Source of the DNA: Prorocentrum cordatum
Lineage: Eukaryota > Sar > Dinophyceae > Prorocentrales > Prorocentraceae
Reading direction: 5' to 3'
NCBI GenBank assembly: GCA_963575745.1
Contig: CAUYUJ010019279.1
Coordinates: 37,501-101,500, forward strand
DNA: 64,000 nt
The notes beneath the pieces are model-generated. The model ran no database searches, was not told where the DNA came from, and was given only the letters and a program-made list of their open reading frames with translations. Numbering within the stretch: position 1 is the first letter of the stretch; the number at the start of each line of letters is the position of its first letter. This document shows, one piece after another, positions 34,490 to 52,319 of this stretch. The position numbers were made by a program, and so were the translations under genes.

Positions 34490-34554
34490 GAGTCGGAGGG
34501 GAGGGAGACGAAGCGTGAAACCGACGCCCCTATACAGCAGGCACAGCAGCTAAC

Positions 34555-35261: not shown

Positions 35262-35264
35262 CGC

Positions 35265-36861
35265 CTGGTAGACGATCTTCTTCGGGCAGGCCTGTAACTC
35301 TGGCGATCGCGCTCAGTCGTCGCACTTGAATGTTGGTCGGTGCTTGGACACGCTGCAGAGATACAACCTGCCCCATTGCACACACCTGGGTGACCAGAGC
35401 GTTTGCCAGCGCACCCCTGAAACTAACGAACGTGTCTGTCACCATCTCGGTTGCTTGAGCGTCAGCGCCAGCGCCGGTTAGTTCGGGATATCGTATAGGA
35501 CGGAGCTGTTTGATATATTCATCTTGGTCCAAGGAAACATTGCCGTCCTTAGTGTATCTCACAGCACAATAAGTATATGTGTGCCTGTTGAGTTTACACA
35601 CACCGAAAGTATCTTCAACGGATTTGACATATTTGTCAATGGTGTCCTCAGTACGGGCCATATTAATGTCATCAACATACTTGGCCGTGAGCAAGGCATT
35701 GCTCGTCTCGAACTCCTCGTCGTAAGACGTGGGTCGGATGCCAAATCCTCTGGTGGTTCTTCTGAGCTTCAACGAGAAAGCCCGTGGGGCGCCCTTAGTG
35801 CCGGTTCCCGGTTTCAAGCACTGCAGGCAGTGCTTTGGCTCGTCGTAGTTCTCGAACCCTGGAATGGCACGGGGCGCAGTGGCCGATCCAGGCGGCAAAG
35901 TCAGGCACACCACACATTCCTTTTCACCTGTAGCCTCATCAAGTTCCTGATCGGTCAATCCCTTCAGGAAGGCCATGTTGATGTCGACGGAAGCAATGAT
36001 CCACTGCTTCTTGCGCGATGCCGTGCTAGCGAGTACCCCCTGGCTCGACCTTCTGACTGTTCCCGTGAATGTTTCTACGTCGAAAGCTTCAGGGCCCATG
36101 AAACCTCGGAGTACCAAGCGTAGTCGGATGGTACGTTCCATCTCGCCCTTCTCGTTCTTCACGAATTTCCATGTGCACACGTATCTCGAAGTCATAATGT
36201 TCGACGCTTGGGCTATCACCTGCACCTTAAAGCATTTGTTGTCGAACCATGTCTTGAGCTCAGTGAAGAGCGACTTCGATACTTGATCGGGATTCGCCTG
36301 AATGTCAGCTTTAGCGATAAGGTCGTCTTCCTTGACGACCGCGGCTCGCTTTGCAGCGGCGGTAACGTACACTCGCACAGTGGTCACCCGGTGGGCATCC
36401 AATATCATGCGTTGCTGCTCGGACAAGACTACCTTCGACATTTCTGTCGTAAAGCACAGTTCAACGCATCGACCATTGTCGTCTGAGTCGAGCCCGTAGC
36501 TGTCGTCTTCGACCATGGTGCACAGGGGGGCGTAGAACGTCTCCTCGGTATCGGAGTAGCGAGTGCGTCCACACTTCGGCAGGTAGCCCCGCTGTTCATC
36601 CGCTACAGTGATCAGCACGCTCTGATCCGGAACCATCTGTGTGGGCATGGTAAAGAGGTCCTCTAGTGGAGTTGCCTCCAACAGTTCTCTTTCATCTTGC
36701 AGTTCTGCGTACCACCTCCGTAACATGCGACTCAAGATCAGCTTCTGATTCCTCGTAAATCGTAAAGAGCCGTCTGTCATCATGTGCTGGTTCGGCTTCT
36801 GAAGCTTCTCCTGTGCTTCCTTCGGTGTTGGCGCATCAGCCAAGTCCTCAATGTTTGACAT
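35265..36861 (-). CDS. copia-type reverse transcriptase domain
   Basis: RNA-dependent DNA polymerase that copies the element's RNA. The open frame of about 530 aa begins with a leader containing LSRMLRRWYAELQDERELLE. Then comes the RVT_2 signature W-K-F-V-K-N-E-K-G with RLVLRGF, motif A SVDINMAFLKG (catalytic Asp near residue 294) and the active site KYVDDI (Asp-Asp near residue 394). The thumb/connection follows to about residue 530, after which the frame leaves homology and RNase H continues in another frame. This is the only long uninterrupted domain of the element. The Met near 36,861 is simply the first in the frame; the protein would be cut from a polyprotein. Confidence 0.92.
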
Positions 36862-37785
36862 GTCCTGATCAAAACCTGCCTGAGGGTTAGTGGGCTTCAG
36901 GCATTGGATGATTCGTGAATGTGCTGATCCAGTTATATCATATATATATATATATATATATTCAAGACAGTACCTTCTGCTTCGTAGTCCGCTGGCCCCC
37001 TTGTGGGGCCACCGGGCTGCGAGGCACGGGTTCGCAGTTTCCAGTGCCAGTTGTAGCTTGTTGTTGCCAGTGTTGCAGTTCTGCTTCTTGCTGGCTACTG
37101 TAACTAATTGACTTTTTGCTGGTTACTGTAACTAGTTGATTGACCGCGCGAGGGGGGGGGGAGGCCCAAACGGGATTTTTAGCACCCCCTGGGCGCGTTG
37201 TCTGAATTGCTGGGGGGGCTCGAAATCGACACCTCACGCAGATCCGCGGGGCCAGGGTCCAAAAACACATGGGATTTGCCGCATGTCTGAAATTCGGCGC
37301 CACCCCTCACGCAGATCCGCGGGGTCAGGGTCCAAAAACACAAGGGATTTGTTACATTTCAGAAATCCGGTGCCACCCCTCACGCAGATCCGCGGGGCCA
37401 GGGTACAAAAACACAAGGGATGTGCCACATTTCTGAAATTCGGTGGCACCCCTCGCGAAGATCCGCGGGGTCAGGGCCCAAACGCGCAGGATTTGCCACA
37501 TTTCTGAAATTCGGTGCCACCCCTCACGCAGATCCGCGGGGTCAGGGTCCAAAAACAAAGGGGATGTGCCACATTCCTGAAATTCGGTGCCACCCTTCAC
37601 GCACATCCATCGCAAGGCGTGGTAACCCAAACTGCGAGAACTCCCTCGGCCCTTTAGTCGCAAGGTGTGGCAACCAAGCCCGTGAACCATACACGTCTTA
37701 CCAATCGCCAGGTGTGGTAACCCCTCTTGTGATCAGTTGGTTTTGCTGATTGCGAATCGGCTTCGCATGAAGTTTCGATACTGCT
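36862..37785. repeat. repeat insertion between integrase and RT: (TA)n and 73-bp tandem array
   Basis: An ATATAT run lies at 36,939-36,961. From 37,230 to 37,612 a unit of 72-76 bp (containing CACGCAGATCCGCGGGG and GTGCCACATTTCTGAAATTC) repeats about 5.2 times, followed by three shorter units with TCGCAAGG(C/T)GTGG(T/C)AACC (37,610-37,725). The array is flanked by TAACTAATTGACT / TAACTAGTTGATTG (37,100-37,145). It interrupts the polyprotein and has no coding role I can see. Confidence 0.8.
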
Positions 37786-38292
37786 TCACGACAGCGCCAA
37801 GGCCCCATGACTTAGCTCTTCCACGGCCCATTCTCCAAGAGAGGGGGCCGGCGGCAGGGGGCGAAGCCCTTGCGGATAATGAAATCCTGGATTGACGTCG
37901 TTGTCGTAATGGACCAATTTGCAGCTGTCGGCATAAGTAACCGGAGGTAGCTTATGGGAACTCGTGGCTGCTCTGACCGAAACTACAGTCTCAATGCGAA
38001 AGAAGTTGGTGATCAAATATTGTAGGACAAAACGTACCTTACGGGATAAACTACTTGCAGTCGTCATCTGAAGCGTACCTTTCTTGGTCGGCATATAGCC
38101 AAATGTCAAGGCAGGTCTCCCCGCTGATAGGCTGGCGACGAATGTCAACACTGTGCGTAGTGCAGTGTTGTCGGGGCCAGTCTCTCGGGTTATGAGTGCT
38201 TCAATGTATGGCGAATGTCTTGCATCGCCGCGTTGTACTTGAACATCTCGATTGCCTACTCGGATGACGACCTGACCCCTTTCCGGGATCAT
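37786..38292 (-). CDS. polyprotein segment between integrase and RT
   Basis: An open frame of 168 aa with natural composition, starting PERGQVVIRVGNRDVQVQ, which resembles the basic C-terminal tail of the integrase in this element type. It includes ALTFGYMPTKKGTLQ. No known catalytic motif. From memory the segment is conserved among related dinoflagellate elements. The C-terminal 20 residues look unrelated and run into the repeat insertion. GCAGGTCTCCCCGC at 38,111-38,124 fits the hairpin consensus but may be native coding sequence (SAGRPAL). Confidence 0.6.
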   Translation of the reverse strand: MIPERGQVVIRVGNRDVQVQRGDARHSPYIEALITRETGPDNTALRTVLTFVASLSAGRPALTFGYMPTKKGTLQMTTASSLSRKVRFVLQYLITNFFRIETVVSVRAATSSHKLPPVTYADSCKLVHYDNDVNPGFHYPQGLRPLPPAPSLGEWAVEELSHGALALS

Positions 38293-38326
38293 TCCTTACG
38301 ACTGGGAACGGGCCGTTCCAGCCTCC

Positions 38327-39212
38327 TCAGTCATCCTTCGTGGTCGTAGGGCGATGGTAGTCGACCAAGTCTCCTTCCTCATGATAATGCTGACCGGTAA
38401 TTGTCGTCTTAGTGCGTAAGGCACGATTGGTCGTAGCTACTGCCGTGGCCTGTGTGATAGCTTCAATGCATACCCTGCGTATCGTCTGTTCACGAGAATG
38501 ATCGGATGTTTCCGTCTGCTGCTCGTGGTCCAGAACAGGGAGGTCAGGGAGCATTGCTGGTTGCCGTCCAAATAGATCGTTGTATGGAGACGCTTCGTTA
38601 TAGAAGGCGAATGCGTTGGCGGCGAACGAGGCTTCGTGCAGTTGTCTGGTGAACACAAGAGGTATGTCTAACCAATTGAGTTCGGCCTCCAGGACGTGAA
38701 GTAAATGACGTAGGATGCCATTTCTGGCGTCGATCTTTGTAGCGTGCTGTCCACGCGCACGTCTTATGAGTGCCGTGCCTTTTTGCCTTGAGGACTGCTT
38801 CGCAGTGTCCAAACTGCATCCAGCACTGATGATATGCATCCAGGATAGTGGTAATAGTTTTGTCTGGTATTCCAATCCCAGTAGCATACCGTATACAACA
38901 AACGACACTGTGAAATATATGGTGCCCTTGCTTGTAGAACATACAATTACATTCCACATCCTCATTGAATTTACCGGGTAATGCAGCGGAGGGCATAACA
39001 GTGTGTCCAGGTTTGTCCCAAGCTCTGCATTCCCGGCATGTGTCGCAGACACCCTTGATGAGGTTGAGTCTGACACTGTCCAGACCTATGTTGCTTAAGA
39101 TGAGTCTCGTCTTAAGCTCATTCGCATGGAACCAGCGTAAGTGTAGCTTTCGCAACTCGCGTGTTACCACGCTGGGGTCGAGGCTTCGCAAGTTTTGTAG
39201 ACTGATTTGCAC
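38327..39212 (-). pseudogene. GAG-pre-integrase and integrase, frameshifted
   Basis: Integrase joins the cDNA to the host chromosome. The first frame (38,598-39,212) has LRKLHLRWFHANELKTR followed by CDTCRECRAWDKPG, the zinc-binding pre-integrase region (HxxxH/CxxC type), then KFNEDVECNCMFYKQ, where the first catalytic Asp is expected, and TTILDAYHQCWMQFG. Homology resumes in a second frame (38,327-39,076) with ARGQHATKIDARNG, which holds the region of the third catalytic residue, and FYNEASPYNDLFGRQP. The shift is at a run of five T (38,780-38,784, A5 on the coding strand). The stretch that should carry the second catalytic Asp between QFG and the shift is absent, so the enzyme should be inactive even if the frame were continuous. 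Confidence 0.8.
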
Positions 39213-39242
39213 AACGAACCGTGACCAGTCTGGTAGTCGTGG

Positions 39243-39818
39243 TCATGCAGCAGGGTTCCCCGCTGGTGGTGGAGGTGCTTCTCCACCTTGTTGTCGACCA
39301 CGTCTGACTCTAACCTGTGGTAGTCGGAGATGGCCATCCGAACTACCAGCTCCACTCGAGGCAGGTTGCCCTGCAGCAGGCTCAGCAGCATGTCTTCCAA
39401 CAGTAATGTCTTGACTGCTTGCGCCCGCGGTGGGTCCAGCTCGCGAGCCGGGTCTCGGTGCTCTCAGTCGCGTCAGTGGTGGTGTTGCTGGCGCCTCGGG
39501 TGGTGATGCTGCTACTTCAGCAGGACCCGGCAGTGCAGGTCCTGCTGCCGGCTCGGCGGGAAACGGCGGAATCTGTCCATGATTGTCGGGCAACTTCCAA
39601 GGCTTGGCAAATTTGCATTCGCCTGGTGTTAGCACATGTCCAGGTTTGCTCTTCCCGTTGATCTTCTTACAACTCGGACACTCCCAATGGTAGTCGTCCT
39701 TGTCGTGCCATCTGCAGTGTCTCGGATCTCTATCATGAGAGAGAATGCGTGTTGAAATTATCCGCGCAAGCAGGACACCCGAGCCCTCCCGATGGTGGTC
39801 TCGTAATCGAGCCATCAA
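39243..39818 (-). CDS. polyprotein segment with Cys/His cluster and Pro/Ala linker
   Basis: An open frame of 191 aa. Residues about 30-70 contain HCRWHD, WECPSCKKING and a final GECKFA, a pattern suggesting a small zinc-binding knuckle or ribbon (CxxC plus Cys/His). The rest is a low-complexity Pro/Ala/Gly linker leading to the pre-integrase region. Two hairpin motifs lie in the linker and are read as A-G-Q-P-A (39,361) and A-G-N-P-A (39,250). Confidence 0.55.
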   Translation of the reverse strand: MMARLRDHHREGSGVLLARIISTRILSHDRDPRHCRWHDKDDYHWECPSCKKINGKSKPGHVLTPGECKFAKPWKLPDNHGQIPPFPAEPAAGPALPGPAEVAASPPEAPATPPLTRLRAPRPGSRAGPTAGASSQDITVGRHAAEPAAGQPASSGAGSSDGHLRLPQVRVRRGRQQGGEAPPPPAGNPAA

Positions 39819-40096
39819 CTTGTCGGGGAAGACTCGGGTCGCCCAAATCGTAAACCCTTACGTTGGTGGCCAACGCGGTGGACGAATACGGGTAGCCATG
39901 GAAAGGATCACGAGCTGTCTGAAAGAGATCGCGTGCGATCTGAACAGATTCGATACAGAGCGACTGCATCTTTGATGTATATTGCGCAGCCGTGGACAGT
40001 TCCTTATTGCATACCGACGAGTGTTGACGATGGCCACTGCATCGTTTCCGTTCAAAAGGGGTGAAATAGACGATGGTCGGCCATGATGTCGGTCAG
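39819..40096. other. no clear domain
   Basis: Between the Cys/His segment and the methyltransferase-like segment I see only short broken frames. It probably belongs to the decayed polyprotein. Confidence 0.4.
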
Positions 40097-40571
40097 TTAT
40101 CCCATCAGTTCTCGTATCAGTACCCCATGCGAATCACGTAAGCCAGTAGTGCATTGATCCATGTTCACCTTGCAGGTGCCCTTGCTTTTAACCAACGTAG
40201 TCCATGGTGGTATCTGATCAAACACAGTCCCAACTGGTTGTTCTCTTAAGGAAAGTCGTCGAATATCATTTTGACGTACAGCCACCTTCCCACAGCACTT
40301 GATACAATGGAAGATCTTCTTTATGCGGTTCATGCCAGGTGTCGTAGTTAACCTTCGCATTGAAGTAGGAAGGCAAGCCAGTGGTTCTGCAGCTGAGCTG
40401 TAGTATGACAGCCTTGACGAAGCAAACGTTTGAATAGTGCAGCACTGCATCTTGGAACTCCCTGCTGCCACGATCCACAAAAGTACGTTTGCCGAGGTTT
40501 CCCCCTGAAGACAGTTCCCGGCTGAATGCTTGCTGGGAGATGCCTCCAATCCCCCCACATAGTTTTAACAT
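40097..40571 (-). pseudogene. methyltransferase-like (Rossmann) polyprotein segment, two frames
   Basis: The first frame (40,266-40,571) begins LKLCGGIGGISQQAFSREL, a glycine-rich loop like the SAM-binding start of DNA cytosine methyltransferases, and reaches LSCRTTGLPSYFNAKVN, where related elements have a Cys-containing motif. Homology continues in the second frame (40,097-40,558) with REQPVGT and VNMDQCTTGLRD. From memory this pair of blocks is common in dinoflagellate copia polyproteins. Whether it ever methylates DNA is not known to me, and calling it methyltransferase-like is inference from the loop pattern. A frame change occurs at about 40,300. Confidence 0.6.
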
Positions 40572-40636
40572 GTCTACCTTATTGCGTCGTCCGTATCACA
40601 AGGTGGGGGATAATGGAGAATGCATCTGCGCAAGAT

Positions 40637-41071
40637 TCAGCAGGTTGCCCCGCAGGTAGGGTGATGAAGGTCCTCTCCGTCGTCACTACCCGTGTCGGAG
40701 TCCAGAGGTACGTCGGTGCAGTACGCACTACACCCGAGTCCTTCCAGGTCTTCTCCACAGTCGTCGTTGCCTTCTTCGGCTTTTTGGGGTGTCTTGCGTG
40801 GTATGATGCCAGCTTCTTTGACTGCTTTATGTTTTTCTTTTTGTTTAATTCTGGCATATGTTGGTAAAGCTGTCTGTTGTTCTGTCCCAGGTGAGTTAAG
40901 TGTGGGAAATTCGGGAATATAGCACGCTGCCGCGCTCAATCGAAGGGGGAGGGAGACGATCGTCACCGATGATCGCCGCTCGCCTTGAGCGTGGTCGTGA
41001 TCTGCCATCTCCCAACAGAGTCGGTTCTGGCTGCTCCCAGTACAGTGAAATACGGATGTTGGTAACACCAT
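40637..41071 (-). CDS. acidic polyprotein linker
   Basis: An open frame of 145 aa, basic in the middle (YARIKQKEKHKAVKEAG) and acidic at the end (DDCGEDLEGLG, SDTGSDDGEDL). It leads into the glycine-loop segment downstream. One hairpin motif (40,640-40,653) ends it, read here as C-G-A-T-C. No domain is recognised. A second frame over 40,896-41,171 reads naturally too (NMIVQDIKIQDQPTRYNY), so the true frame of the upstream part is unsure. Confidence 0.45.
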   Translation of the reverse strand: MVLPTSVFHCTGSSQNRLCWEMADHDHAQGERRSSVTIVSLPLRLSAAACYIPEFPTLNSPGTEQQTALPTYARIKQKEKHKAVKEAGIIPRKTPQKAEEGNDDCGEDLEGLGCSAYCTDVPLDSDTGSDDGEDLHHPTCGATC

Positions 41072-41418
41072 AGGGCAATGGTGCGTTGTAGTTGTACCTG
41101 GTCGGCTGGTCCTGGATCTTGATGTCCTGGACGATCATGTTGACGCCCAGGTTCATCGTCACCCGTCTCACAACATGGCCCCACTCGGGGCCATTCTTAG
41201 GAGACTGAACGTAAGTTCGGCTCCTTTATCAACGCGAGTATGGATACTCAGGTGTATAGAACTTGTGTGATTCCTTTGTTTTGTGTAAAACCCATGTGAT
41301 AAATCAACCTTGCGGCCATTATCACTATTGTCGTGTTCCGCCATTCGGCCTCCTAAGCACCTTGTTCATGCCAGTCTAGAATGTGCTCAGTAGGTTCTGC
41401 AGGTTCCCCTGCTACATT
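41072..41418. other. no clear domain; one hairpin motif
   Basis: Broken short frames. Contains the hairpin at 41,399-41,412 (minus-strand loop GGAA). Confidence 0.4.
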
Positions 41419-42135
41419 TCATGCGCATCGCCGTAGATTGGTGGGGAGGCGCGTGCACGTAGTCGCCGCTTGCAGATGCGATCCGCTGGGCAACGTGTCA
41501 GCGCGGTCGCACTTGAGACCGAAGTGGCAGAAACGCATGCGCATGACTTGCAAGGGGAGATCTTGAATAGCATCTCGTGTGAGACCTTGTTTCCAGAAGT
41601 GCCCTGGTGGCCCCACAAACACAATGGTCATGCGTAGAGCCCGAGCCTTGGACATCAGATTTTGGATGCGCTGGTCGTGCGGCCCTGCCCTCTTGCCAGA
41701 CAGCCTCACATACTTGTCAGCAGGTGTTGCTACCCACAACATTTTGTAATCACCCGAGAGTAGCGCACCCAAAAACTGTGTACCAGTGGAGGTGAACACC
41801 TCCGCATGTGTCATACGATCGCACATGTATCCACGGGCTCGGAGTTCAGCGCAAGCTGTCCGTATATCCTCAATGACAAATTCACAGGAATGATAATGAT
41901 GCGACAATCCATCCTTTTTGTGCAGCGGCCACACGGCCGGGTGCACTGCTGGTCGTGGCAGCCGCACCGCCCGGCTTGCCGCGGTCCCTGGCACGCACAG
42001 CCGGTGCCTGGGAACAGAACGCAGGTTTCCCCGCAACTGCTGACAGCACCTGAATGTTCGGCCTGCCCGAGCAAGCGCGAGTGGCCGTGGCGCGCGCCTG
42101 CCCCCGTCACTCGTTTGGCGATGGGGGGCGTCCAA
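41419..42135 (-). CDS. polyprotein segment, conserved block of unknown function
   Basis: An open frame of 238 aa. The C-terminal 110 residues include LWVATPADKYVRLSGKR, a hydrophobic strand ending VFVGPPGHFWK and MRFCHFGLK, followed by SGSHLQAATTC. I remember this block as conserved upstream of the CGG-loop block in related elements; it may be the first half of the same enzyme-like fold. The GPPG turn after a strand could bind a nucleotide, but that is speculation. The N-terminal third is Arg/Pro-rich and carries one hairpin (42,021-42,034, read RGNL). A diverged hairpin-like word is at 41,720-41,733. Confidence 0.5.
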   Translation of the reverse strand: MDAPHRQTSDGGRRAPRPLALARAGRTFRCCQQLRGNLRSVPRHRLCVPGTAASRAVRLPRPAVHPAVWPLHKKDGLSHHYHSCEFVIEDIRTACAELRARGYMCDRMTHAEVFTSTGTQFLGALLSGDYKMLWVATPADKYVRLSGKRAGPHDQRIQNLMSKARALRMTIVFVGPPGHFWKQGLTRDAIQDLPLQVMRMRFCHFGLKCDRADTLPSGSHLQAATTCTRLPTNLRRCA

Positions 42136-42280
42136 ATGCCAGTGCCGTGCTGCGCTGCAGAACCGCTGCAGGAAGTTAAAAAATCAAAAACTTCTCAGCG
42201 GAATCATCTACTTCCGCAGGTGTCCCTGCCTGTGCATCGGGGGGCGTCCACTTCGTACCCTCCTCGTAGACGGCCTGATC

Positions 42281-42323
<43 letters not shown>

Positions 42324-42393
42324 TTTCGCCTGCAAATTGCGGAGGGCGAGGTCCTTGTCGGCCGAGGTAGGGGTAGTCCCAAAGGGCATATTT
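42136..42393. repeat. (TA)n microsatellite in the element
   Basis: TATATA at 42,285-42,315 and a hairpin motif at 42,216-42,229. Otherwise short broken frames. Confidence 0.7.
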
Positions 42394-43347
42394 CTACGAT
42401 GCCATGTCTTCAAGGTAGTATTCACCTAAAGTCTGGATCGTGAAAGCGAACGTCAACTCATTAATCGAGAAACGGATGCCCTTCGCATCCTGTGACATCA
42501 TGTATGCGTGGGCATCATGCACAGCAGGTGCCCCTGCGATTGGCTCTGGATCGGATACTTCCTTGACGGGTAATGGAGCTTCTTCGCACCGAGGATTGGC
42601 CGTGATAGTAAACGATATCGGCACTTGATCCTCAGTAGCCATCTCGTACTCGTCAGCTTTGGGTGCCAGATGCCCGGAGGGCGTCTTCATCAGGCCGAGT
42701 GCCCTGGCACCTTGTCCGAGTAGAACCTTGTACATCCCCACGCCAGGAATGATCATCTTCTCGTGCCCCTGCTCAAGGATCAGGATGGCCCCCATGTTGG
42801 ACATGCCCCTGATGTCCAAGATGGCAGGGAGATTCCCCCCAGAGTCCTCAGCCACATTTGCTGAGTACGTATCAAGTCTCGGCGCAACAGGTTGCCCCGC
42901 GGGATCTCCCCATTTTCCTTGCATGCAATCTTGCAATGCAGGGGTGCGTCGCTAATCGCGGCGCCATGTCCCACTCCTTACTCGTAAAGCCTCTTCGTGA
43001 GGTTCAGCCTTTTTAGCAGCGTGTCCGCTGGAACGTGATACCTGCTCAAAGGTCATTGCCGTCTTTAATCCAAAAGTATGAATATTACTGCCAATTTTGA
43101 AAAGAATAATCAACATACCATTGATCATACTTCCACTGATAGCTGCCAAGGCTAGCTCATGTCGTTCACCAAATATTCCAGGAACTTCAGATACTGCCGT
43201 ACCATGCAAGCCTTTTGTGGCGCCTCTGCTCCAACACCCAAACATTTCTTGACATATGCGTGCACACATCCATCCACCCACGAGCCTCTTCTTCTGGAAT
43301 AAGTTTTTTTTTTGTTTCAAAGGTCCAAGCTGCATGACATTCGTCAT
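42394..43347 (-). pseudogene. retroviral-type aspartic protease, broken and lacking the catalytic Asp
   Basis: The protease cuts the Gag-Pol polyprotein. The N-terminal half is in the frame 42,952-43,347: LIILFKIGSNIHTFG aligns with the active-site loop of this family, where Asp-(I/V)-Gly-Ser-Asn is expected, but Lys replaces the Asp. A middle piece (HGAAISDAPLHCKIACKENG) lies in a second frame (42,780-42,974). The C-terminal half returns to the first frame (42,394-42,936): YSANVAEDSGGNLPAILDI, EKMIIPGVGMYKVLL and APKADEYEM. The second frame change coincides with the hairpin motif at 42,887-42,900. Both the lost Asp and the shifts argue for a dead enzyme. Confidence 0.65.
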
Positions 43348-44562
43348 GCATATATGGTTGCGCTGTGGGGGTAGTGGGTAGGTTTAGAAACATGTCCTCT
43401 TCCGCGCGCGTGCTCATCTGACCATCCGTGCTTAGCATAAGTACCGTGTGCAGCATGTCGCGTTCGGATACCCCGCTGTTGCCACTGCGCATGCTTACAA
43501 GGCTCTCCGCCCTGCGCTGACTGCGTGGGCGGAGATCTCGCCCATATGGCATATCTGAGTGCGAAGACTGAAGCCATTGAGCGCTCCTGCTGGTAGCCCT
43601 TTCCATGCGCCTCAAACACGTAACGTTCTCTGGCACCGAAGGTGGAGCCGATCTAGCAGGTGCCCCTGCGTCATTGTCGGTCTCTGCCACCAATGGCAGA
43701 GGCGCGTCTATAGCAGGTGCCCCTGCGAGTGCGGTTGTCTCCGTTACTAGCCCCGCGTTGGCCTGCGACGCAGGTGGCCCCGCTGGTGTCGTCGTCGAGG
43801 CGGCCGCGGTGCCTGTCATCATGGCCGTAACGCGGTTGAGCTCTTCACGGAGACCCCTGAGCTCGTTCGCCCCTCGAAGTATGTATTCATGACGATTGAG
43901 TGACTCTTGATCTCCAACAAGGGCGCAGTGGAACTCGGCAGCAATGAAGCCAACGCCCCTGCATATAGCGCAGGGAGCCTCACATGCGGAACCTTGTTCT
44001 GTTCCCAGCCAACTGTCTATCCCCATGGGCGCGTGTGCACTCGATCCCAGCATTGTGCGCGGAATATGTGGCCGCACTGGAGGCGCCGGACCTTGTCGTG
44101 ATTCATGAACAGGTCCAGGCATATGGCACACTTACTGAAGTCGCCGTCAATGAAGATGGGCGGTGTTGCCGATGGCCTGATACGCATCTGGCGCTCCAGG
44201 GTGGATTCACCGGCCTCGAACCGAATAGTTGATGATACCGTCGGTGGCTGCATTGATGCAACCATGGCTGGGCTGCTCGCAGGTGTCCCTGCTATATTGT
44301 GATTAGCAGGTTGCCCCGCGCGGCTCGGCACTCCGTTGGCCTGGCGATCCTGAAGTCGGCGCTGGCGTGCAGCGGGCACAGCCAAATTGGCTTCCTGCGC
44401 CTCGTGCGCGGCCAAGATTTCCAGGCGCAGCGCCCCCATGGTCGGCGGCAGCACTAGGCTTGGAGCCCGTTGCTGCACATCTTGATCCATGGGGGAAGCC
44501 AGACAACCATAGTGAGGTATCTGTCCTGGCACACCTGATGCATGCACTGAGCCACGTGTCAA
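43187..44562 (-). pseudogene. RING-finger-like segment and AGxPA linker, one frame change
   Basis: The frame 44,017-44,562 ends with FSKCAICLDLFMNHDKVRR and LQCGHIFRAQCWDR, the first half of a RING-type zinc finger (CxxC, then CxH and xxxC). It then stops at 44,017. The other frame (43,187-44,131) supplies CEAPCAICRG about 20 residues on, which gives the last Cys pair. One extra or missing base near 44,035-44,050 would separate the halves. RING domains normally recruit E2 ubiquitin enzymes. Downstream is a low-complexity linker in which three hairpins spaced 57 nt apart are read AGxPA. The N-terminal part (MGALRLEILAAHEAQEANL) looks like a helix or coiled coil. Confidence 0.55.
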
Positions 44563-45546
44563 CTGCGGCTGGTAGAAGTCGCCGGCCGTCGCCCGAACGT
44601 ATGGATTCTCGGGCTATATTCCCACCCGAGGAATACCACTCACCTGGGCATGATAGTCAGGAAAGAGGGGATGATCCATTGGCGCTGCTGTAGGACGATC
44701 AGCAGACGTTGTATCGCAAGCCGGATGACTGAAGAATGCTGGCACATAGCCGAACCGATTGGGAGTGTCCGGTGATGGATTTGGATCCGGAACATACTCC
44801 CACGGCGGCGTCCAGTTGGCATTAGGGAGGTCATTACCAACCCTCCGCATGCTCTGAGCGGCCTCACGCATCTGCCGATACATCAACTCTTGCTGACCAA
44901 CTGAGCTTCACTGTTTGGCGTATTGGTCAGGAACAGCAGGTTGCCCCGCGCGGCTCGGCACTCCGTTGGCCTGACGATCCTGAAATCGGCGCTGGCGTGT
45001 AGCGGGCATAGCCAAATTGGCTTCCTGCGCCTCGTGCGCGGCCAGGATTTCAAGGCGCAGCGCCCCCATGGTCGGCGGCAGCACTAGGCTTGGAGCCCGT
45101 TGCTGCACGCCAGACAACCATAGTGAGGCATCTGTCCTGGCACACCTGATGCATGCACTGAGCCACGTGTCAACTGCGGCTGGTAGAAGTCGCCGGCCGT
45201 CGCCCGAACGTATGGATTCTCGGGCTATATTCCCACCCGAGGAATACCACTCACCTGGGCATGATAGTCAGGAAAGAGGGGATGATCCATTGGCGCTGCT
45301 GTAGGACGATCAGCAGACGTTGTATCGCAAGCCGGATGACTGAAGAATGCTGGCACATGGCCGAACCGATTGGGAGTGTCCGGTGATGGATTTGGATCCG
45401 GAACATACTCCCACGGCGGCGTCCAGTTGGCATTAGGGAGGTCATTACCAACCCTCCGCATGCTCTGAGCGGCCTCACGCATCTGCCGATACATCCACTC
45501 TTGCTGACCAACTGAGCTTCACTGTTTGGCGTATTGGTCAGGAACA
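44306..45546 (-). repeat. 630/611-bp tandem duplication bounded by hairpin motifs
   Basis: Copies 44,306-44,935 and 44,936-45,546 are nearly identical except for 19 bp present only in the first (44,489-44,507). Each copy starts exactly at a GCAGGTTGCCCCGC motif, and a third motif follows at 45,547. The base context on the left changes from GTGATTA (first motif) to GGTCAGGAACA (second and third), and on the right from GCGGCTCGG (first and second) to ACGTGG (third). This is what unequal exchange between two motifs would leave. Coding pieces in the unit include YRQMREAAQSMRR and NWTPPWEYVPDP. Confidence 0.85.
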
Positions 45547-46022
45547 GCAGGTTGCCCCGCACGTGGACGTGGCGATGCAAATGGCGATGTCGCCTGTAGA
45601 GCCTGGTAGAGCTCCGGATCCATCCGGATGCATTGGAGCCTCGCCTGCAGGCTGTTGTTGCTCCCAGCACTCTGTGGAGTACCGCATGATGCAGTAGCTC
45701 TGCTCCTAGGAGCAAATGAGGCAGGTTGCCCTGCAGGTACTGGCAGTTGTTGAACATGAGCACGCCACGGATCGTTGACGTACAAAGCGTCGGAGGGCGT
45801 GATACCACTTGGTGTAATGCCTGTCGCATCGGCGCTCTGAGCCTGCATCCATGACCCATCAGATCCCCCTGCAGGAGCCCCCGCATGATACGCATCCAGC
45901 ATGAGCACACGTGAGAACACGCCCTCCTGAACCGGAAGTGGATCGGGACACTTCAGGTTGTAGGGGGTATCTAGAAAATACGAATTCATCAAAAATGATA
46001 CATCATTGCGGATATCGTACAT
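45519..46022 (-). CDS. Gag-side polyprotein segment
   Basis: An open frame of 167 aa with YFLDTPYNLKCPDPLPVQEG and ALYVNDPWRAHVQQL. No known domain; the composition suggests a flexible structural segment. Three hairpins are read in frame as A-G-A-P-A, A-G-Q-P-A and A-G-Q-P-A (45,871; 45,721; 45,547). Confidence 0.5.
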   Translation of the reverse strand: MYDIRNDVSFLMNSYFLDTPYNLKCPDPLPVQEGVFSRVLMLDAYHAGAPAGGSDGSWMQAQSADATGITPSGITPSDALYVNDPWRAHVQQLPVPAGQPASFAPRSRATASCGTPQSAGSNNSLQARLQCIRMDPELYQALQATSPFASPRPRAGQPAVPDQYAKQ

Positions 46023-46026
46023 ATCA

Positions 46027-46681
46027 TCATTTTAACTTTGGGAACGGCTGATTGTCGCCCCGCAAACATACAAGATTTACCCATAGCTGTCCCTCACGAT
46101 TATACTGACAAGTATGGCTGGGCAGGATCCCGATCAACTGGGCGATGTGGGTAGGAGGAATCCTGCCATTCCGGCCCGCTGTCATGACGATGTCATTAGC
46201 CGAGCGCCAGATCGGAATGCTGTCCCAAACCAGGTTCTGCAGACTGACCATGATCAGGACCCCCGAATCGACGCGTAGGCCGGACTGAACGGGTGTCACC
46301 AGGAAGGTATGGGCAGCCATGTACAAACTGTCTGCCCCTCTTCTTGATGGCGTCGTCGGCACGGCATGATAATCCAGTACTAAGAATACTCGATATATTC
46401 TCACATTGAGTTCCATGAATGAAATAACAGAGTGCCCCAGGAGCCGACAGGTCCGTAATTCTCATATCTTATGACTCAGGGCACTTAATACCAGGGCTGC
46501 TGTGTCCGTTAGTTGGGCGGATGAAGTATGTCACGTAATTCATGTCGGGGTACTTCATCTTCTTGACATGCAGCCTTTTCTGCTTCATGCCAGACTCATC
46601 TATCATGCCAATAAGTTCCAAGACAACATATGCCTGGCACGCCCAGTGCTGGTCCTTGAGCATGGGGCGTACTGTGTCCAA
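46027..46681 (-). pseudogene. Tpt1/KptA-like RNA 2'-phosphotransferase fragment
   Basis: Tpt1/KptA enzymes use NAD+ to remove an internal 2'-phosphate from RNA. In the frame 46,196-46,465 there is LCYFIHGTQCENISSILSTG, which has the HGT-(x)n-I-(x)n-GL start of the family, and AIKKRGRQ. Homology then moves to the frame 46,027-46,416: MAAHTFLVTPVQSGLR, a strand VLIMVSLQNLV, and WRSANDIVMTAGRNGRIPP, matching the S-x-N-x-(V/I)-x-(L/M)-T ... (I/L)-P-P end of the fold. Upstream in the first frame (46,469-46,681) is a natural stretch (MNYVTYFIRPTNGH) separated by one stop. Assignment is by pattern only; the key Arg/His residues need an alignment. Confidence 0.45.
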
Positions 46682-46840
46682 GTGTTTAGAGTGATATGTC
46701 TCGTATCCTTATGCAGGCAACGCGTTGAGTAGCTGTGATAGTTCTGCCCACCCGTCGTACGCATCATACGTCGTCACTGCGCGAATTAACCTGTCCGACA
46801 AATGGTCATTAATGAAGCGGCTTGTGACGGAAGGCAATTG

Positions 46841-47690
46841 TCAACCACTCAGAAACTTGACGTTGAACTGAACAGCCGTGCCTGCACTTCGGCCTGCGAA
46901 CATTCTCTGACCTGAGGATGTTCTCCAAATAGTCCCTTCCAGAGTCAAACGTGAGAGCTGGGCGTTTCCGCAAGATGTTGCGCACTGTTTAGCGCGCGTG
47001 TGCACCTGGATCAGCAAGGGCAGCAGCGCCCATGACTTGGTACTACACCACCATGCATCGTTCAGATCCATCGTCAATCCGCAGATGATACGCTGGATTG
47101 ATCTTCGCGTGGTTGGAAGTGCGCATCCTATCTCAGAACCCTTTGCATTCCGGCGGCGCCTCCAGCGCAGGGGCAGGTTGCCCCGCTGAGCTGCGAGCAG
47201 GTTGCCCCGCATATCTCTGAGCAGGTTGCCCCGCAGAACGTGGGGCAGCCTTTGGCGCTGCAGGCGCTGCTGCGCTCGCTGCCGACGCGGCAGCGCCAAC
47301 AGATCCTCTGGGCGTCCTTGGAGTTCCTTGCGGGGTACCTATGTCGAAGTCACGGTGGGTCTTCTCCTTGGTGTTCTAGGACTCGGCAGCCTTATCCATG
47401 GGCGTTGCTCCTGGCACATTTGCTGCGGTTTCAAGGAGCTTCCCAGTGCGTTGCGTGGAAGAAGCATCCCTTGTCCTTCCTTCCAAATGAGGCACCCATC
47501 CTGTCCTGTGCGTCCGACCTAATGTAGGGCCGCGACGAGGCACAGGTCTCTTTTGGAGTAGGCGCGCTGGTGCCCTGAAATTTGGCTGCTGCGGCGGCCA
47601 CTGCTGGTCCTCTGGAATGTCGTCGATCAGCGGGTTACCCCGCATGTCGCTGCTGCTTACTGTCCCCAGGGTTACGATCATCTGGGCCAC
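46841..47690 (-). CDS. Gag-side segment with three evenly spaced hairpins
   Basis: The frame 46,841-47,299 ends with natural sequence (CGLTMDLNDAWWCSTKSWAL and QVHTRAKQCATSCGNAQLSR). Its N-terminal part reads three hairpins as RGNL, RGNL and RGNL at exact 24-nt intervals (47,173; 47,197; 47,221). Upstream 47,376-47,690 is another frame with DMRGNPLIDDIPEDQQW, which reads the hairpin at 47,630. No family recognised. Confidence 0.45.
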
Positions 47691-48189
47691 TCCTCTTCTT
47701 TTTTCCTGAGCTTAAGATGGTCAAGACAAGATTTGCTAGATGAATCACTACCCCAGTGCGCCCCCACCTAGAAGTCGGAGCCCCTAGCAAAGCAGCAGTC
47801 GTTGCTATGCTATGCTAAGCTATGCTATGCAATGATATGCTACGCTATGATATGCTATGCTATGCTACGCTATGCTATGCTAGGATATGCTGTGCTAAGC
47901 TATGCTATGCTATGTGATTGCTGCGCTATGCTATGAGCTGCTATGACTAGCTATGCTATGCTGAGCTGTGCTATGCTGAGCTGTGCTGTGCTGTGCTGTG
48001 CTGCGCTATGCGATGCTACGCTATGCTTTGCTATGCGGGGCTATACTATGATATGCTGTGCTGCGCTATGCTTTGCTACGCGATGCTATGCAGTGGTCTG
48101 CGATGCTAAAGCTCAGCGAAGCTAAGATGAAGTTAAGCTAAGCTAGGATAAGACTAAGCCAAGGCCAAGCTAAAATGAGATAGGCCACG
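47691..48189. repeat. (TGCTA)n pentanucleotide satellite inside the element
   Basis: From about 47,797 to 48,115 degenerate TGCTATGCTA pentamers run without break, then grade into AAGCTAAGCTA words to 48,200. It separates two coding parts of the Gag side and is likely a later expansion. Confidence 0.9.
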
Positions 48190-49022
48190 CTAAGCTAAGG
48201 GGACGTAGCTGGGGGAACCGCGGGGCGGATCCTGGGGGAACCGCCCGGGGCGAGGCCCACTGCCGGGTCCCTTTAACACAAAGAGTAAGTGCCCTTCTAG
48301 GCAGAGACTAGGTAGGGAAAAAGACGAGGGAAGATCGATCATCTCTGTCTTCGGCTTGGGAGTCGCCTTTGCCGTAGCTCCTGCCGGCGCCCCAGATACA
48401 TATCGTTTAGGACTTCGGTCAGGATTCAGATCGATACCACCTGGCTTCCTGAGGGCCATATTATCAATGGGTACCTTGTGTCCATGTGTACTATGTGCAA
48501 CGACGTACTTATCGGAGTGCCGTCTTCCGACGATGCGTGTCTTTATCCAGCCAATAGACTGAGCGCGATAAACAATCCGCCTCCCAGGAGATCGGTCCAT
48601 ATCTCTTGTGGCAGCGTCCTCGGGGTCGACCGGAGTATCCGTATCACACGTAATGTCTGTGATGCCCGAGTCGCTTGGCCCACCGCCGCCAGGGGCAGCG
48701 CACGTAGGATCAACTTCTTCAGCCATTCATCATCTTCATATTCACCAGTTTCTCGTTGGCTTCCTTCTTCTGGTCTATGATCAGCAGGCTTCCCCGCGTG
48801 CCACTCGCGATCGAACTGCGCCAGATAGTGAATAGGTATCAAGTTATGCCAAATGGCTTTTGTCTGAGCAATATCTTCACGAGTGACGGGGTCGTAATCC
48901 TTTTGCGTCAGCTGCTCGCGATATGGCGTTTTGTTGGGGTCAGTGCAGCGACCCTGGCCATCTCCATGAGACCAAACCCGCGGCGTTATTTCGAAATTCG
49001 GGCATCTGGATGGGCGTCTCAT
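48190..49022 (-). CDS. Gag-side segments, unknown function
   Basis: Two overlapping frames with natural composition. 48,543-49,022 includes PNKTPYREQLTQKDYDPVTR and IWHNLIPIHYLAQFDREWHA. 48,190-48,726 begins MAEEVDPTCAAPGGGG and contains RIVYRAQSIGWIKTRIVGRR and HSDKYVVAHSTHGHKVPI. The second could follow the first after a frame change near 48,725. One hairpin is read A-G-K-P-A (48,784-48,797). The second frame runs into a GGGGAACCG repeat near 48,210. Confidence 0.45.
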
Positions 49023-49664
49023 GTGACTGGGGCATGTGCAGCGAACGCCTCTGTCGAGCTTTCGATCCTCGATGATGGCCCTTTTGAGATCGCGCTTGAC
49101 AGTCTGTTCCTGCGAGTTGGTCTCTGTCTCCCCATTGAACGAATGATATTGCCCTCATCATCGTTTGCATTGACGAAGAGGATGCCAGTGCCGGATTTGA
49201 TGCTCGCTCCATGCCATTCCCAGCCAGTATTCCATCTGGTCTGCGGGTATGTACTGACGAGCCAATCCAGCTTCAGTGTAGCCTTTCAAACGCTGTACTT
49301 CACCTTCTGGCATTCTCCTCCTCGATGCCGGTCATCTTGAGGCGGGTGTCCCCGCAGACGGCCCTTCCCTAGGGGAGTATGCGCGCTTGTCGCCTTCCAC
49401 GGCGGGCCCCATCGGGGCCCCCGCATCAAGAGGATGAGGGCGCTGACCACCGCTCGAACGAGCACCGCTAGAGCGGGCTCGCACACGATCTGGTGAGGGA
49501 CTGGGAGATGGACCGCGACGCATCATGCGGTCATCGTCTCACTTTTCGTCCACCTCGTCCATTGGGGAGCGACTTGGATCGTCATGACATCTCTTCCATA
49601 TCAAGGGTAGGCGGCTTGGCGATCGTCTAGGGCTGCTGGAGGACCGAACTGGCGCAACAGAAAC
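49023..49664 (-). other. Gag-side region with broken frames
   Basis: Ser/Arg/Gly-rich short frames (49,332-49,526) carry one hairpin (49,342-49,355, loop GACA). I cannot assign a domain. Confidence 0.4.
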
Positions 49665-50366
49665 TTACTGAAATTCTTCATTGTGCCCAAGCTCATATTG
49701 AATACGCTCCGATAGATCACCAGTGTCGCGCGGGTTTCCCCGCAATGGATCATCATCGATTAATTCTGTGTTTGTCGGATTTCCAATCACCCGAGGATAG
49801 AGCATGGCATGTATTTCCCCTTCTGCGGCAGGAATGGTAAAATCTGAGTCCGCGGGTGTCCCCGCCGTGCCGGAGTCACCTTCGACGGGCATGTGGAAGT
49901 TCTCGACGAACTCAGTATCTGCAGGTTGCCCCGCGATGGGTGCACCCAGCAGCTCTGCCAAGTCGATATCGCTGTGGCCAGTGAACACCTCCTCGAAGAG
50001 CTCATCGGCGTAATTATCGAGGGTCCTGCTGGCACTTTGATACCTGGCAAACATGAAATGAACAATCGTGGCTGAGCCGTCGGCAGGGTCGGCCACCAGC
50101 GACTCCCAATCAACATACTGTATGTCGGAGTCCGTTTGAGCCGGATGTATTGACGGACCCCTGCCTCTTCCATCACCTCGGGGGCATTCGCGTCGGAAGT
50201 GTTGCGAACTGTGACATATGTCGCACTCCATGGTTTTACCGTTGGCATCCTTTGGGTTTCCTCGTCGTCCTTTGCGTTTACCTGATGTATCCCTACGGTT
50301 TCTGCCAGTGCCTCGAAACATTTCCCCATGCTGAGGTCCAGTGAGAGACGCTCGGAATGCTAGCAT
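49665..50366 (-). CDS. Gag CCHC zinc knuckle segment
   Basis: An open frame of 233 aa. Residues about 47-61 are C-DI-C-HSSQ-H-FRRE-C, a perfect Cx2Cx4Hx4C retroviral zinc knuckle, preceded by a basic stretch (GKRKGRRGNPKDANGK). Such knuckles bind genomic RNA for packaging. The remainder is acidic (DNYADELFEEVFTGHSDIDL). Three hairpins are read as A-G-Q-P-A (49,921), A-G-T-P-A (49,852) and R-G-N-P-R (49,730). One of the few parts of the element that stays open, which supports the Gag assignment of the right-hand end. Confidence 0.8.
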   Translation of the reverse strand: MLAFRASLTGPQHGEMFRGTGRNRRDTSGKRKGRRGNPKDANGKTMECDICHSSQHFRRECPRGDGRGRGPSIHPAQTDSDIQYVDWESLVADPADGSATIVHFMFARYQSASRTLDNYADELFEEVFTGHSDIDLAELLGAPIAGQPADTEFVENFHMPVEGDSGTAGTPADSDFTIPAAEGEIHAMLYPRVIGNPTNTELIDDDPLRGNPRDTGDLSERIQYELGHNEEFQ

Positions 50367-50837
50367 GCCTCTGCCATGTAGTCGCCGACGTTGACCTCTC
50401 TGCCTTTACTTCGACCCCGTTGTACAATACGTCTTGCCCTTCTGACTGGTTTCTTCATAAGCCTCCGCCAACGACGCCTTTAATTCTCTGATAGCCCAAA
50501 AATAACCTTTGAGCTTGCTGCTCTTCCGCTAGGCATATCAGAGTAATCCAAGGCGGTAGCTGCATCATCGGAAGACGTATCCGTATCAGTACCGGAGTCG
50601 AAGTCGGACCCGGCGGGTTGCCCCGCTGAGCCGATTAGGGCCGTAGCTTGCATAGGGGGAGCCGCGTCGGGCGGTCCCCCAGATCTTGCCCAGGGGCCTT
50701 GCGACCCCGAAGCCGTTCCACCACTCTGAGCCCACAGTGTAGTGGTCTCAATTGGCGGTATATCGTCGTTTCAGACGTTGTTAGCAGGTTGCCCTGCGTT
50801 GGTCTCTGCGCGGAAAGTCTCGTTTCGATGGCCGTGG
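50367..50837 (-). other. Gag region, broken frames, two hairpins
   Basis: Natural peptide pieces appear in different frames (FWAIRELKASLAEAYEETSQ near 50,440-50,510; SDFDSGTDTDTSSDDAATAL near 50,560-50,610; DSLATAIETRLSAQRP near 50,810-50,850). Hairpins lie at 50,613 and 50,784, 171 nt apart. Confidence 0.45.
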
Positions 50838-51609
50838 CTAAAGAATCCACAACTTGCCAGGGGTCCTCTCAGATATGTGAGCATGTGACCTCACACGTTC
50901 AAGTAGAGCGTCAAACTGCGGTTGGTGCATCGGCACGCTGTGGTTCAGAGGCTGCAGGAATTGTCGTGCAAGCGACGTCCCCACTCCAAGAACTCTGAAT
51001 ATACTTACGGCTAATATTTGGAAGTTGGGGATGTTGAAGCCGGAGGTTTCAGCTTCGTAGCGGGCTATTTCGAAGCGTGCGAACGTCTGGTCGATACGTT
51101 CTCCCGCATGGACTCGAAAGTCAATGAGAGCCGTGCCAGAGTTGAGTTGGCGTTCCTCTTCTAGGATCTCGAACTTCGTACTTAAGCGGAGCATAATGTA
51201 GGTGACGCCGTCAGTGTGGTGACCGCCTATATTGACGCCCAAATTGATGACTGCTGGGGGGGGCTCTCATGGCGATGGTCCGTGCGAGCCCTCCCAGACC
51301 GCGCTGCAGTGCGGCGGCCTGCTGGGAGGGCCGCATGTTGCCTGTGGTCATTGGTCCAGGCATGTACTTCAAAATCACGACATGGTACTTGACCAGCAGG
51401 ATCCACCTGGGGGCCGGTCGTTCTAGCGTCGTCTCCGCCCCGCAGACGTCCCGCCCCACACCCGAGAGCGACCCATATGGGCCCAAAGATAGTAAGCCCA
51501 ATCCAATGGCCTCGTAGGTCGTAGTCGGATGTAGTGAGGACTTATGTTTTGTCGTCGTAAGTCTGCGTGGGGGTCGGAGGCGGCAGCATATCGTGTCGCT
51601 CGTTTCCAT
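50838..51609 (-). pseudogene. Gag capsid-like segment with homopolymer frameshift
   Basis: Structural protein of the virus-like particle. The frame 50,838-51,242 (VTYIMLRLSTKFEILEEERQ, DFRVHAGERIDQTFARFEIA, FQILAVSIFRVLGV, LERVRSHAHISERTPG) is helical in pattern and matches the Gag type of dinoflagellate copia elements as I remember it. The preceding part is in 51,211-51,609 (MTTGNMRPSQQAAALQRGLG). The two are joined if one base is skipped in the G8 run at 51,256-51,263 (C8 on the coding strand). Another shift occurs after the TPG at about 50,855. Confidence 0.65.
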
Positions 51610-51950
51610 GCATTGTCTTCCAAGAAACTTCCCATTGGAGTAGGTGGGTGAACTTCAGGAATGTAACAGCGCAGGGATGTAGGATGTGAGTAAGAGACCT
51701 CCGCTTGAACAGGGGTATCGCTGCAAGTTTCCTTGCGGTACTGCGTAGTTGTATACGCTACTCCGCGCAATCCCACTGCACCCTGCTGTTCCGCCATGTT
51801 CGTAGTCCACCAGATAGTGCCCTGGATGGTGAGGAGTAGAGCCAGAGCTGACCACCATCGGCCAGCTCCGCTACCAAATTTGAAAAGGGGGCTGGAAGGC
51901 CCAGCCAACAGCTTCGCCTCAGGCGAAGCCAAGCTCCCACTCTGTTGCAC
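51423..51950 (-). CDS. N-terminal Gag ORF starting inside the 5' LTR
   Basis: The open frame starts in the LTR and runs through the primer site, so only its later part can be protein in the element's own mRNA. Natural stretches are MAEQQGAVGLRGVAYTTTQY and SYSHPTSLRCYIPEVHPPTP. The first Met after the primer site (MAEQQGAV, near 51,797) is the more likely start. It overlaps the next Gag frame by nearly 190 bases, with no clear junction. Confidence 0.4.
   Translation of the reverse strand: MQQSGSLASPEAKLLAGPSSPLFKFGSGAGRWWSALALLLTIQGTIWWTTNMAEQQGAVGLRGVAYTTTQYRKETCSDTPVQAEVSYSHPTSLRCYIPEVHPPTPMGSFLEDNAWKRATRYAAASDPHADLRRQNISPHYIRLRPTRPLDWAYYLWAHMGRSRVWGGTSAGRRRR
51865..51876 (-). promoter_or_regulatory. 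primer-binding site (initiator tRNA-Met type)
   Basis: Four bases (AATT) after the CA end of the 5' LTR the minus strand reads TGGTAGCGGAGC. TGGTA at this spot is the complement of a tRNA 3' UACCA, and TGGTAGC...GAG fits eukaryotic initiator tRNA-Met, with one difference from the animal form. It confirms the orientation and the left limit of the 5' LTR. Confidence 0.75.
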
Positions 51951-52137
51951 CGTAGTAACGATAGTCCCAGTACGAGATGAGATGCCATCTCAAGCAATAG
52001 GAAGATCCTCTTGGTCTCGATAGCGATTGCGTGCCTCGCGGTGAGGCGCAGTCAAAATCTAGGAGGCCGGCCGCTTGAGCCGACGCGGCCGCGGGCGCGC
52101 GCCCGCTTCCACTCCTGGCGCCCCTCAGCTCGCTTTA
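51881..52137 (-). repeat. 5' LTR of the copia-like element
   Basis: 257 bp, matching 34,235-34,489. It reads TG...TA on the plus strand (TA...CA on the coding strand), so one terminal dinucleotide is not canonical. Transcription of the element should start here on the minus strand; no core promoter motif can be named. Confidence 0.85.
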
Positions 52138-52142
52138 GAGTT
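52138..52142. other. candidate target-site duplication, right (GAGTT)
   Basis: Matches the five bases left of the other LTR. Because both LTRs also continue with GAG on this side, one or two bases of the boundary are uncertain. Confidence 0.5.
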
Positions 52143-52319
52143 GGTGCGCGCATCTCTTCGGCAAAGCAGAACGCATTCTTGCAGGGGCTCGAGGATGCGC
52201 CCGCGTATCCATCCATCCCAGAACGGACGTCACCGCGGCGCGCGAGTTTCCGCCAATGAAGCCCAAGAGGTTGAGACATCCCGCTCCGCCACCGCCGTGG
52301 GGCTGATCTTCAAACCAAC
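52143..52319. other. no recognisable gene
   Basis: Short flank right of the retrotransposon. Confidence 0.5.

Follow-up and report, generated by a model that had tools for sequence, protein, structure and literature searches.

In RNA viruses, packaging signals can be dispersed, with many short stem-loops that share a recognition motif spread over the genomic RNA, as set out in the available part of a published account (PMC6281560). For the copia element Ty1, the accessible portion of PMC8396678 describes a 5′ packaging signal and a pseudoknot, and mentions no repeated 14-nucleotide (nt) hairpin. Coding palindromes and inverted repeats that are kept alongside protein function have been described in Nematomorpha mitochondrial genes (PMC6649704, in the part available). 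Here, we describe a 14-nt hairpin that recurs within a copia-type long terminal repeat (LTR) retrotransposon in a 64-kb window, by which we mean the whole 64,000-nt stretch of Prorocentrum cordatum contig CAUYUJ010019279.1 that was analyzed. Small hairpin units inside genes are also familiar as Rickettsia palindromic elements and as mitochondrial GC clusters and byp hairpins, all of which are longer and occur genome-wide.

The repeated hairpin resembles the dispersed signals of RNA viruses in being a sense-strand stem-loop with a common loop motif that recurs within the element. It differs from them in that its stem is invariant, without compensating changes, whereas the viral sequences, in the portion of the source available, vary around the motif; its host is an LTR retrotransposon, and Gag binding is only predicted here. 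As in Ty1, the host is a copia-type element whose Gag must pick its own RNA. The palindromes of Nematomorpha are mitochondrial and reach 284 bp in the excerpt consulted, unlike the 14-nt hairpin of the element. In contrast to the Rickettsia palindromic elements, GC clusters and byp hairpins, it is 14 nt long and is confined to one element within this window.

A 14-nt hairpin recurs on one strand of a copia-type element

The pattern GCRGGGNNNCCYGC matched 30 times in the window. These matches represent 29 distinct sites, which all lie on the minus strand and start from 36579 to 50784 (Table 1); the hairpin at 39250 is self-complementary, was therefore matched on both strands, and was counted once. 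No exact GCRGGGNNNCCYGC site was found on either strand of the window beyond the element (34237-52144). An earlier reading of this DNA (hereafter, the original prediction) had proposed a single orientation and absence from the rest of the window, and both proposals hold. Shuffled versions of the window contained a mean of 0.59 matches (maximum 3). For the element alone, we counted 29 sense matches and one antisense match, the latter due to the self-complementary site, as compared to a mean of 0.043 (maximum 2) in 1000 dinucleotide shuffles. Chance as the sole cause of the abundance is ruled out by these shuffles, as had been anticipated.

The number and spacing of the hairpins differ from those first proposed, which were 28 copies at intervals of about 410 bp. 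The span 39250-50797 contains 27 exact hairpins and two one-mismatch copies (40172 and 42887), the only one-mismatch sense-strand hairpins in the whole element. A total of 28 would be recovered by adding the copy at 42887 to the exact ones in the span; however, the element has 29 exact sites, two of which (38111 and 36579) lie outside this span. Spacing is irregular, ranging from 24 to 1532 bases, and includes one triplet at 24-nt steps and another at 57-nt steps.

Hairpin boundaries are sharp, at exactly 14 nt, and the flanking columns look random. Nine positions (1, 2, 4, 5, 6, 10, 11, 13 and 14) do not vary among the 29 sites; although the search pattern itself fixes them, hardly any near-misses exist. 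Of the remaining positions, the third is A or G and the twelfth T or C, and position 9, which is free in the pattern, is A in 26 of 29 sites. Apart from this motif and AT repeats, the entries in a list of the element's twelve most frequent five-base stems occurred once or twice.

The sequence is predicted to form a 5-bp stem (GCRGG/CCYGC) and a four-base loop (G-N-N-A), and six variants folded alone as RNA adopted this structure with energies of -7.1 to -9.3 kcal/mol, in agreement with the original prediction. Across the 29 sites, the pair formed by positions 3 and 12 is G-T at 15, A-T at 9, G-C at 5 and A-C at none. The two half-sites are unequal, with GCGGG on the left in 20 of 29 sites and on the right in 5 of 29 (Fisher P = 1.5e-4), and 26 of the 29 loops read GNNA in a single direction. 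The restriction to a single strand, the constant loop orientation, the occurrence of G-T without A-C at positions 3 and 12, and the unequal half-sites are more in keeping with RNA than with double-stranded DNA. The invariance of the stem suggests that its sequence is specifically recognized or that the copies derive from one recent unit. Searches with Rfam covariance models returned two weak matches at E≤1 in the sequence searched, neither at a motif site, in line with the original prediction, which did not recognize a described family with this consensus. Likewise, the titles and openings of abstracts among the literature matches listed yielded no dispersed 14-nt hairpin in a retrotransposon.

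We compared the scarcity of imperfect copies with the divergence of the LTRs, which differ by 17 substitutions at 259 ungapped positions. This corresponds to ~3.3% per copy since insertion if the LTRs were initially identical; the estimate is rough, and the LTRs were perhaps not identical at the start. At this level of divergence, ~10 one-mismatch hairpins would be expected alongside the 29 perfect ones, as compared to the two observed (Poisson P = 0.003; P = 0.06 if divergence is set to 2%).

Silent codon positions are fixed within the hairpin

Translation from the first base of the hairpin gives Ala-Gly-x-Pro-Ala (AGxPA). In this copy of the element the reading frame is interrupted by numerous stops and frameshifts, as a consequence of which the absolute frames of the hairpins vary; measured against the local coding frame, by contrast, the hairpins fall mostly in one phase. 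Using a codon-usage score at 30 sites (the 29 exact sites and 42887), we found that the AGxPA phase was best at 23 sites, phase +1 at five and phase +2 at two, with several site scores being close; the score was correct in 107 of 114 windows of its own training set. Two or three hairpins encode other peptides: RGNPR (49730), RGYLP (36579) and, probably, RGNPL (47630).

We next consider how AGxPA is written. The three sense frames of the element contain 28 AGxPA peptides, at least two of them off-phase readings, and every one is written GCR-GGG-NNN-CCY-GC. Outside the motif, in eight open reading frames (ORFs), GGG accounts for 24 of 141 Gly codons, GCR for 47% of Ala codons, and CCY for 43% of Pro codons. 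In 25 of the 28 peptides, the x codon has A as its third base, as compared to 23% of background codons. The last Ala codon ends one base beyond the hairpin, and this third base is T in 12 cases, C in 7, G in 6 and A in 3, such that all four bases are used. Thus, silent positions do not vary inside the hairpin but do so freely at the first base beyond it. Peptides composed of these residues in nine alternative orders occurred zero to three times. The codon counts inside and outside the motif rule out codon bias as the sole cause of the uniformity. Since the GCR, GGG and CCY codons are fixed while the last third base is free, we conclude that the nucleotide sequence of the hairpin is itself constrained, with the peptide on top. 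The original prediction had argued that hairpins fall in all frames and that peptide sequence is not the cause. The nucleotide-level constraint and the sites that encode other peptides agree with this in that peptide sequence alone is not the cause; however, the argument was incomplete, as peptide sequence is involved and AGxPA is the best reading at most sites.

The compared sites are shared with homologous proteins

Three protein searches, for three parts of the element, gave 17, 8 and 25 matches, one of which was shared, for a total of 49 homologous proteins; 48 of these are labeled Pyramimonas sp., a green alga, and the other comes from ENA. The predominance of this label may stem from a mislabeled sample, from transfer or from a mistaken assignment of the host to the dinoflagellates. 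We found no dinoflagellate spliced-leader relics at up to three mismatches, and the 12-base end of the leader occurred no more often than by chance, so that these searches lend no confirmation to a dinoflagellate host. AGxPA occupies the same place in homologues for eight sites (50613, 49921, 49852, 44306, 44279, 43770, 43713 and 43656), indicating that these eight are older than the split of these copies, and the site at 49730 corresponds to RGNPR-like sequence in the homologue frame. The proposal that the hairpin multiplied within the element is therefore not borne out as stated for the sites compared in this copy, as these nine have counterparts in homologues; a single site was gained here by duplication (see below). 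RNA or reverse transcription, which the original prediction also suggested, may nevertheless have had a part in spreading the hairpin. At 50613, exact AGxPA is present in all four proteins that reach this site (P0014-P0017). At the other seven, in the same order, it is kept in 2/7, 6/7, 1/5, 2/5, 13/16, 10/14 and 15/18 proteins.

We also compared the conservation of motif residues with that of the surrounding protein. In the first alignment, 51 of the 56 motif-residue cells of the homologues agree with a leave-one-out consensus, as compared to 68-87% for the rest of the rows; for this alignment and the second, columns with fewer than three other sequences or no 60% majority were dropped. In the third alignment, which covers three sites, the A, G, P and A positions carry the most frequent residue in 195 of 203 cells, as compared to 366 of 466 for the residues between sites and 29 of 52 for x; the sequences are related, the window row is included, and columns with fewer than five letters were dropped. 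Across 55 homologous AGxPA peptides, eight residues are found at x (A, Q, T, G, L, R, P and V), each of which can be written NNA. The residues N, D, H, C, F, Y, W and M, which account for 23% of residues, are never found there. Among the literature matches listed for AGQPA, most concern Plasmodium vivax or its protein, and none a retrotransposon.

This copy contains a tandem duplication (611- and 630-bp repeats) whose junctions each carry a hairpin. The two copies differ by nine substitutions and one 19-nt gap, and share the same two stops. One hairpin of this element was thus gained by duplication, and the location of the junctions indicates that the motif can act as a site of recombination or template switching.

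Scans of a virus contig collection with the Gag ORF and part of the reverse transcriptase (RT) ORF found no relative. Two hairpins 8-38 nt apart occur in one stretch of the virus contigs and in 94 stretches of prokaryote contigs (loci of at most ~11 kb), and most of the 14 richest of these 95 loci look like local arrays with fixed short steps. Five loci from the prokaryote collection (L059, L082, L029, L084 and L093) contain 5-10 copies of the hairpin pattern, mostly at short regular steps, and are perhaps coding tandem repeats.

Possible functions and origins of the hairpin

The hairpins have exact 14-nt boundaries, lie on one strand, are more uniform in nucleotide sequence than their coding role accounts for, are not limited to a single codon phase and, at nine compared sites, occupy positions shared by the family. 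We tentatively favor the reading that they are a repeated, dual-coded, cis-acting RNA stem-loop, most likely a packaging site for the element's own Gag. The stem, closed by its GNNA loop, would be placed ~30 times along the long Gag-Pol region, outside the recognized domains, and would be translated mostly as a linker-like AGxPA peptide. The hairpins are predicted to be recognized by the element's own Gag/nucleocapsid, the most likely partner, or by a host RNA-binding protein, which would pack the element RNA. Distributed Gag-binding sites are suggested by the presence of a repeated RNA stem-loop in a Gag-encoding element, as in RNA viruses (PMC6281560, in the part available). If this reading is correct, one stretch would be an RNA signal and a peptide at once, with about thirty copies fixed at silent codon positions, and Gag binding would make this an LTR retrotransposon with distributed packaging signals like those of some RNA viruses. 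It would also call for caution with short repeated peptides, which may be the shadow of an RNA element.

Several observations weigh against a packaging stem-loop. The DNA-level evidence comes from one element copy in one 64-kb window. Stem formation in context, with 60 nt on each side, was no higher than with mononucleotide-shuffled flanks (mean 0.53 and 0.57, respectively). The stem has no pair swaps, with transitions at R3-Y12 being the only changes, whereas signals selected for shape alone would be expected to swap pairs; the absence of A-C is not significant (~1.6 expected). In three of the 28 window copies, x does not end in A, and one truncated homologue reads AGMP, in which M cannot be written NNA. 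Exact AGxPA has been lost in some homologues: across seven sites, 49 of the 72 cases that can be compared retain it, with the lowest values at 49921 and 44306. Lastly, motif residues at the two sites in the second alignment match the consensus in 24 of 30 cells, as compared to 86-93% for the rest of the rows.

The exact boundaries, random-looking flanks, lack of pair swaps, scarcity of degenerate copies and use of more than one phase would also be expected of a selfish 14-nt hairpin that inserts anew in the element, for example when RT copies or slips, and that survives where its translation is tolerated. We consider such insertion unlikely, given that the eight compared AGxPA sites are at the same places in homologous proteins, that a bare 14-nt insertion would shift the frame, and that the flanks have no evident target duplication. 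Moreover, length changes touching the motif in homologues (-3, -4, -4, -55 and +1 residues) are never a clean five-residue insertion. In a comparison made at the protein level, no clean empty site was seen among the homologous proteins. Five of 40 insertion or deletion events touch the motif, with ~3 expected, and we rejected the motif as a hotspot for such events. Improbable to a greater degree is a tiny self-spreading unit that moves by hairpin-driven template switching in retroelement RNA, with folding or recognition keeping it exact and its AGxPA reading being harmless.

A peptide repeat has no better chance of being correct than new insertion of a selfish hairpin; in this case AGxPA, as a linker or as a protease or binding motif, would have spread by duplication and taken its uniform codons from a founding copy. 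The AGxPA phase at most sites, the well-kept residues at three sites in homologues, and the 611/630-bp duplication together with the triplets at 24- and 57-nt steps are consistent with such a repeat; by contrast, third bases that are fixed inside the hairpin and free in the last Ala, and the two or three sites that encode other peptides, weigh against it. The triplet spacers are identical at 5 of 10 and 15 of 43 positions, and pairs of 43-base segments at the same offset average 10.9 identities. Since the spacers are barely more alike than the element background, they support neither an origin of the triplets by duplication of motif plus spacer nor spacer drift around a kept motif. Recognition of the sequence as a palindromic site in double-stranded DNA, by a protein that binds DNA as a dimer, would account for a near-perfect palindrome clustered in one element, but is very unlikely given the differing half-sites and the single direction of the loop.

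Table 1. Coordinates of the hairpins and of other features of the element
Feature	Coordinates	Strand	Remarks	Basis
Hairpin GCAGGGCAACCTGC	50784..50797	-		pattern search
Hairpin GCGGGGCAACCCGC	50613..50626	-	AGQPA in homologue frame (P0014-P0017 GSAGQPAESDFDSG)	pattern search, homologues
Hairpin GCGGGGCAACCTGC	49921..49934	-	AGQPA in homologue frame	pattern search, homologues
Hairpin GCGGGGACACCCGC	49852..49865	-	AGTPA in homologue frame	pattern search, homologues
Hairpin GCGGGGAAACCCGC	49730..49743	-	other phase, RGNPR (DDDPLRGNPRDAGDLSE-like in homologues)	pattern search, homologues, codon score
Hairpin GCGGGGACACCCGC	49342..49355	-		pattern search
Hairpin GCGGGGAAGCCTGC	48784..48797	-		pattern search
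Hairpin GCGGGGTAACCCGC	47630..47643	-	stop in AGxPA phase; phase +1 (RGNPL) scores better	pattern search, codon score
Hairpin GCGGGGCAACCTGC	47221..47234	-	first of 24-nt-step triplet	pattern search
Hairpin GCGGGGCAACCTGC	47197..47210	-	second of 24-nt-step triplet	pattern search
Hairpin GCGGGGCAACCTGC	47173..47186	-	third of 24-nt-step triplet	pattern search
Hairpin GCGGGGGCTCCTGC	45871..45884	-		pattern search
Hairpin GCAGGGCAACCTGC	45721..45734	-		pattern search
Hairpin GCGGGGCAACCTGC	45547..45560	-	start of tandem duplication	pattern search, self-alignment
Hairpin GCGGGGCAACCTGC	44936..44949	-	middle junction of tandem duplication	pattern search, self-alignment
Hairpin GCGGGGCAACCTGC	44306..44319	-	end junction of tandem duplication; AGQPA in homologue frame	pattern search, homologues, self-alignment
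Hairpin GCAGGGACACCTGC	44279..44292	-	AGTPA in homologue frame	pattern search, homologues
Hairpin GCGGGGCCACCTGC	43770..43783	-	AGPPA in homologue frame	pattern search, homologues
Hairpin GCAGGGGCACCTGC	43713..43726	-	AGAPA in homologue frame	pattern search, homologues
Hairpin GCAGGGGCACCTGC	43656..43669	-	AGAPA in homologue frame	pattern search, homologues
One-mismatch copy GCGGGGCAACCTGT	42887..42900	-		mismatch search
Hairpin GCAGGGGCACCTGC	42524..42537	-		pattern search
Hairpin GCAGGGACACCTGC	42216..42229	-		pattern search
Hairpin GCGGGGAAACCTGC	42021..42034	-		pattern search
Hairpin GCAGGGGAACCTGC	41399..41412	-		pattern search
Hairpin GCGGGGCAACCTGC	40640..40653	-		pattern search
One-mismatch copy GCAAGGGCACCTGC	40172..40185	-		mismatch search
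Hairpin GCAGGGCAACCTGC	39361..39374	-		pattern search
Hairpin GCGGGGAACCCTGC	39250..39263	-	self-complementary	pattern search
Hairpin GCGGGGAGACCTGC	38111..38124	-	outside span 39250-50797	pattern search
Hairpin GCGGGGCTACCTGC	36579..36592	-	other phase, RGYLP, in RT ORF	pattern search, codon score
Tandem duplication	44320..45560	-	611 and 630 bp, hairpin junctions	self-alignment
LTR retrotransposon, copia type	34237..52144	-	17.9 kb; sense strand is minus	terminal direct repeats, RVT_2
5′ LTR	51885..52144	-		terminal direct repeat
3′ LTR	34237..34496	-		terminal direct repeat
Primer-binding-site-like TGGTAGCGGAGC	51865..51876	-	just inside 5′ LTR	sequence reading by eye
CCHC zinc-knuckle-like stretch CDICHSSQHFRREC	50184..50225	-	Gag part	by eye
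Copia-type reverse transcriptase RVT_2	35473..36174	-		PF07727, E=1.5e-8, above cut-off
RING-H2 finger	44038..44133	-		PF13639, E=5.3e-7
Tpt1/KptA-like end of RNA 2′-phosphotransferase domain	46174..46296	-	weak	PF01885, E=4.7e-4, below Pfam cut-off

Other features of the element

The terminal repeats of the element are identical at 242 of 261 positions and are 17.6 kb apart, start to start. We take TGGTAGCGGAGC to resemble the initiator-Met primer-binding site of plant copia elements. By coordinates, no hairpin lies in the RVT_2, RING, Tpt1 or CCHC stretches. Pfam gave no zf-CCHC match at the CDICHSSQHFRREC stretch. For an integrase upstream of RT, there was no Pfam match in ORFs 38604-39242 and 38333-39085, the likeness being one seen by eye.

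The RING-H2 finger lies within the polyprotein region of the copia-type element, and several homologues also have a RING-H2 finger. An array of TAGCATAGC-like units of 10/15 nt at 47768-48117 splits the element between coding pieces, and five direct-repeat copies at ~73-nt steps lie just upstream of the RT ORF (37190-37608). Outside the element, at 33000-33960, we observed a direct repeat with an offset of 661 bp that is 98% identical over the 300 nt compared.

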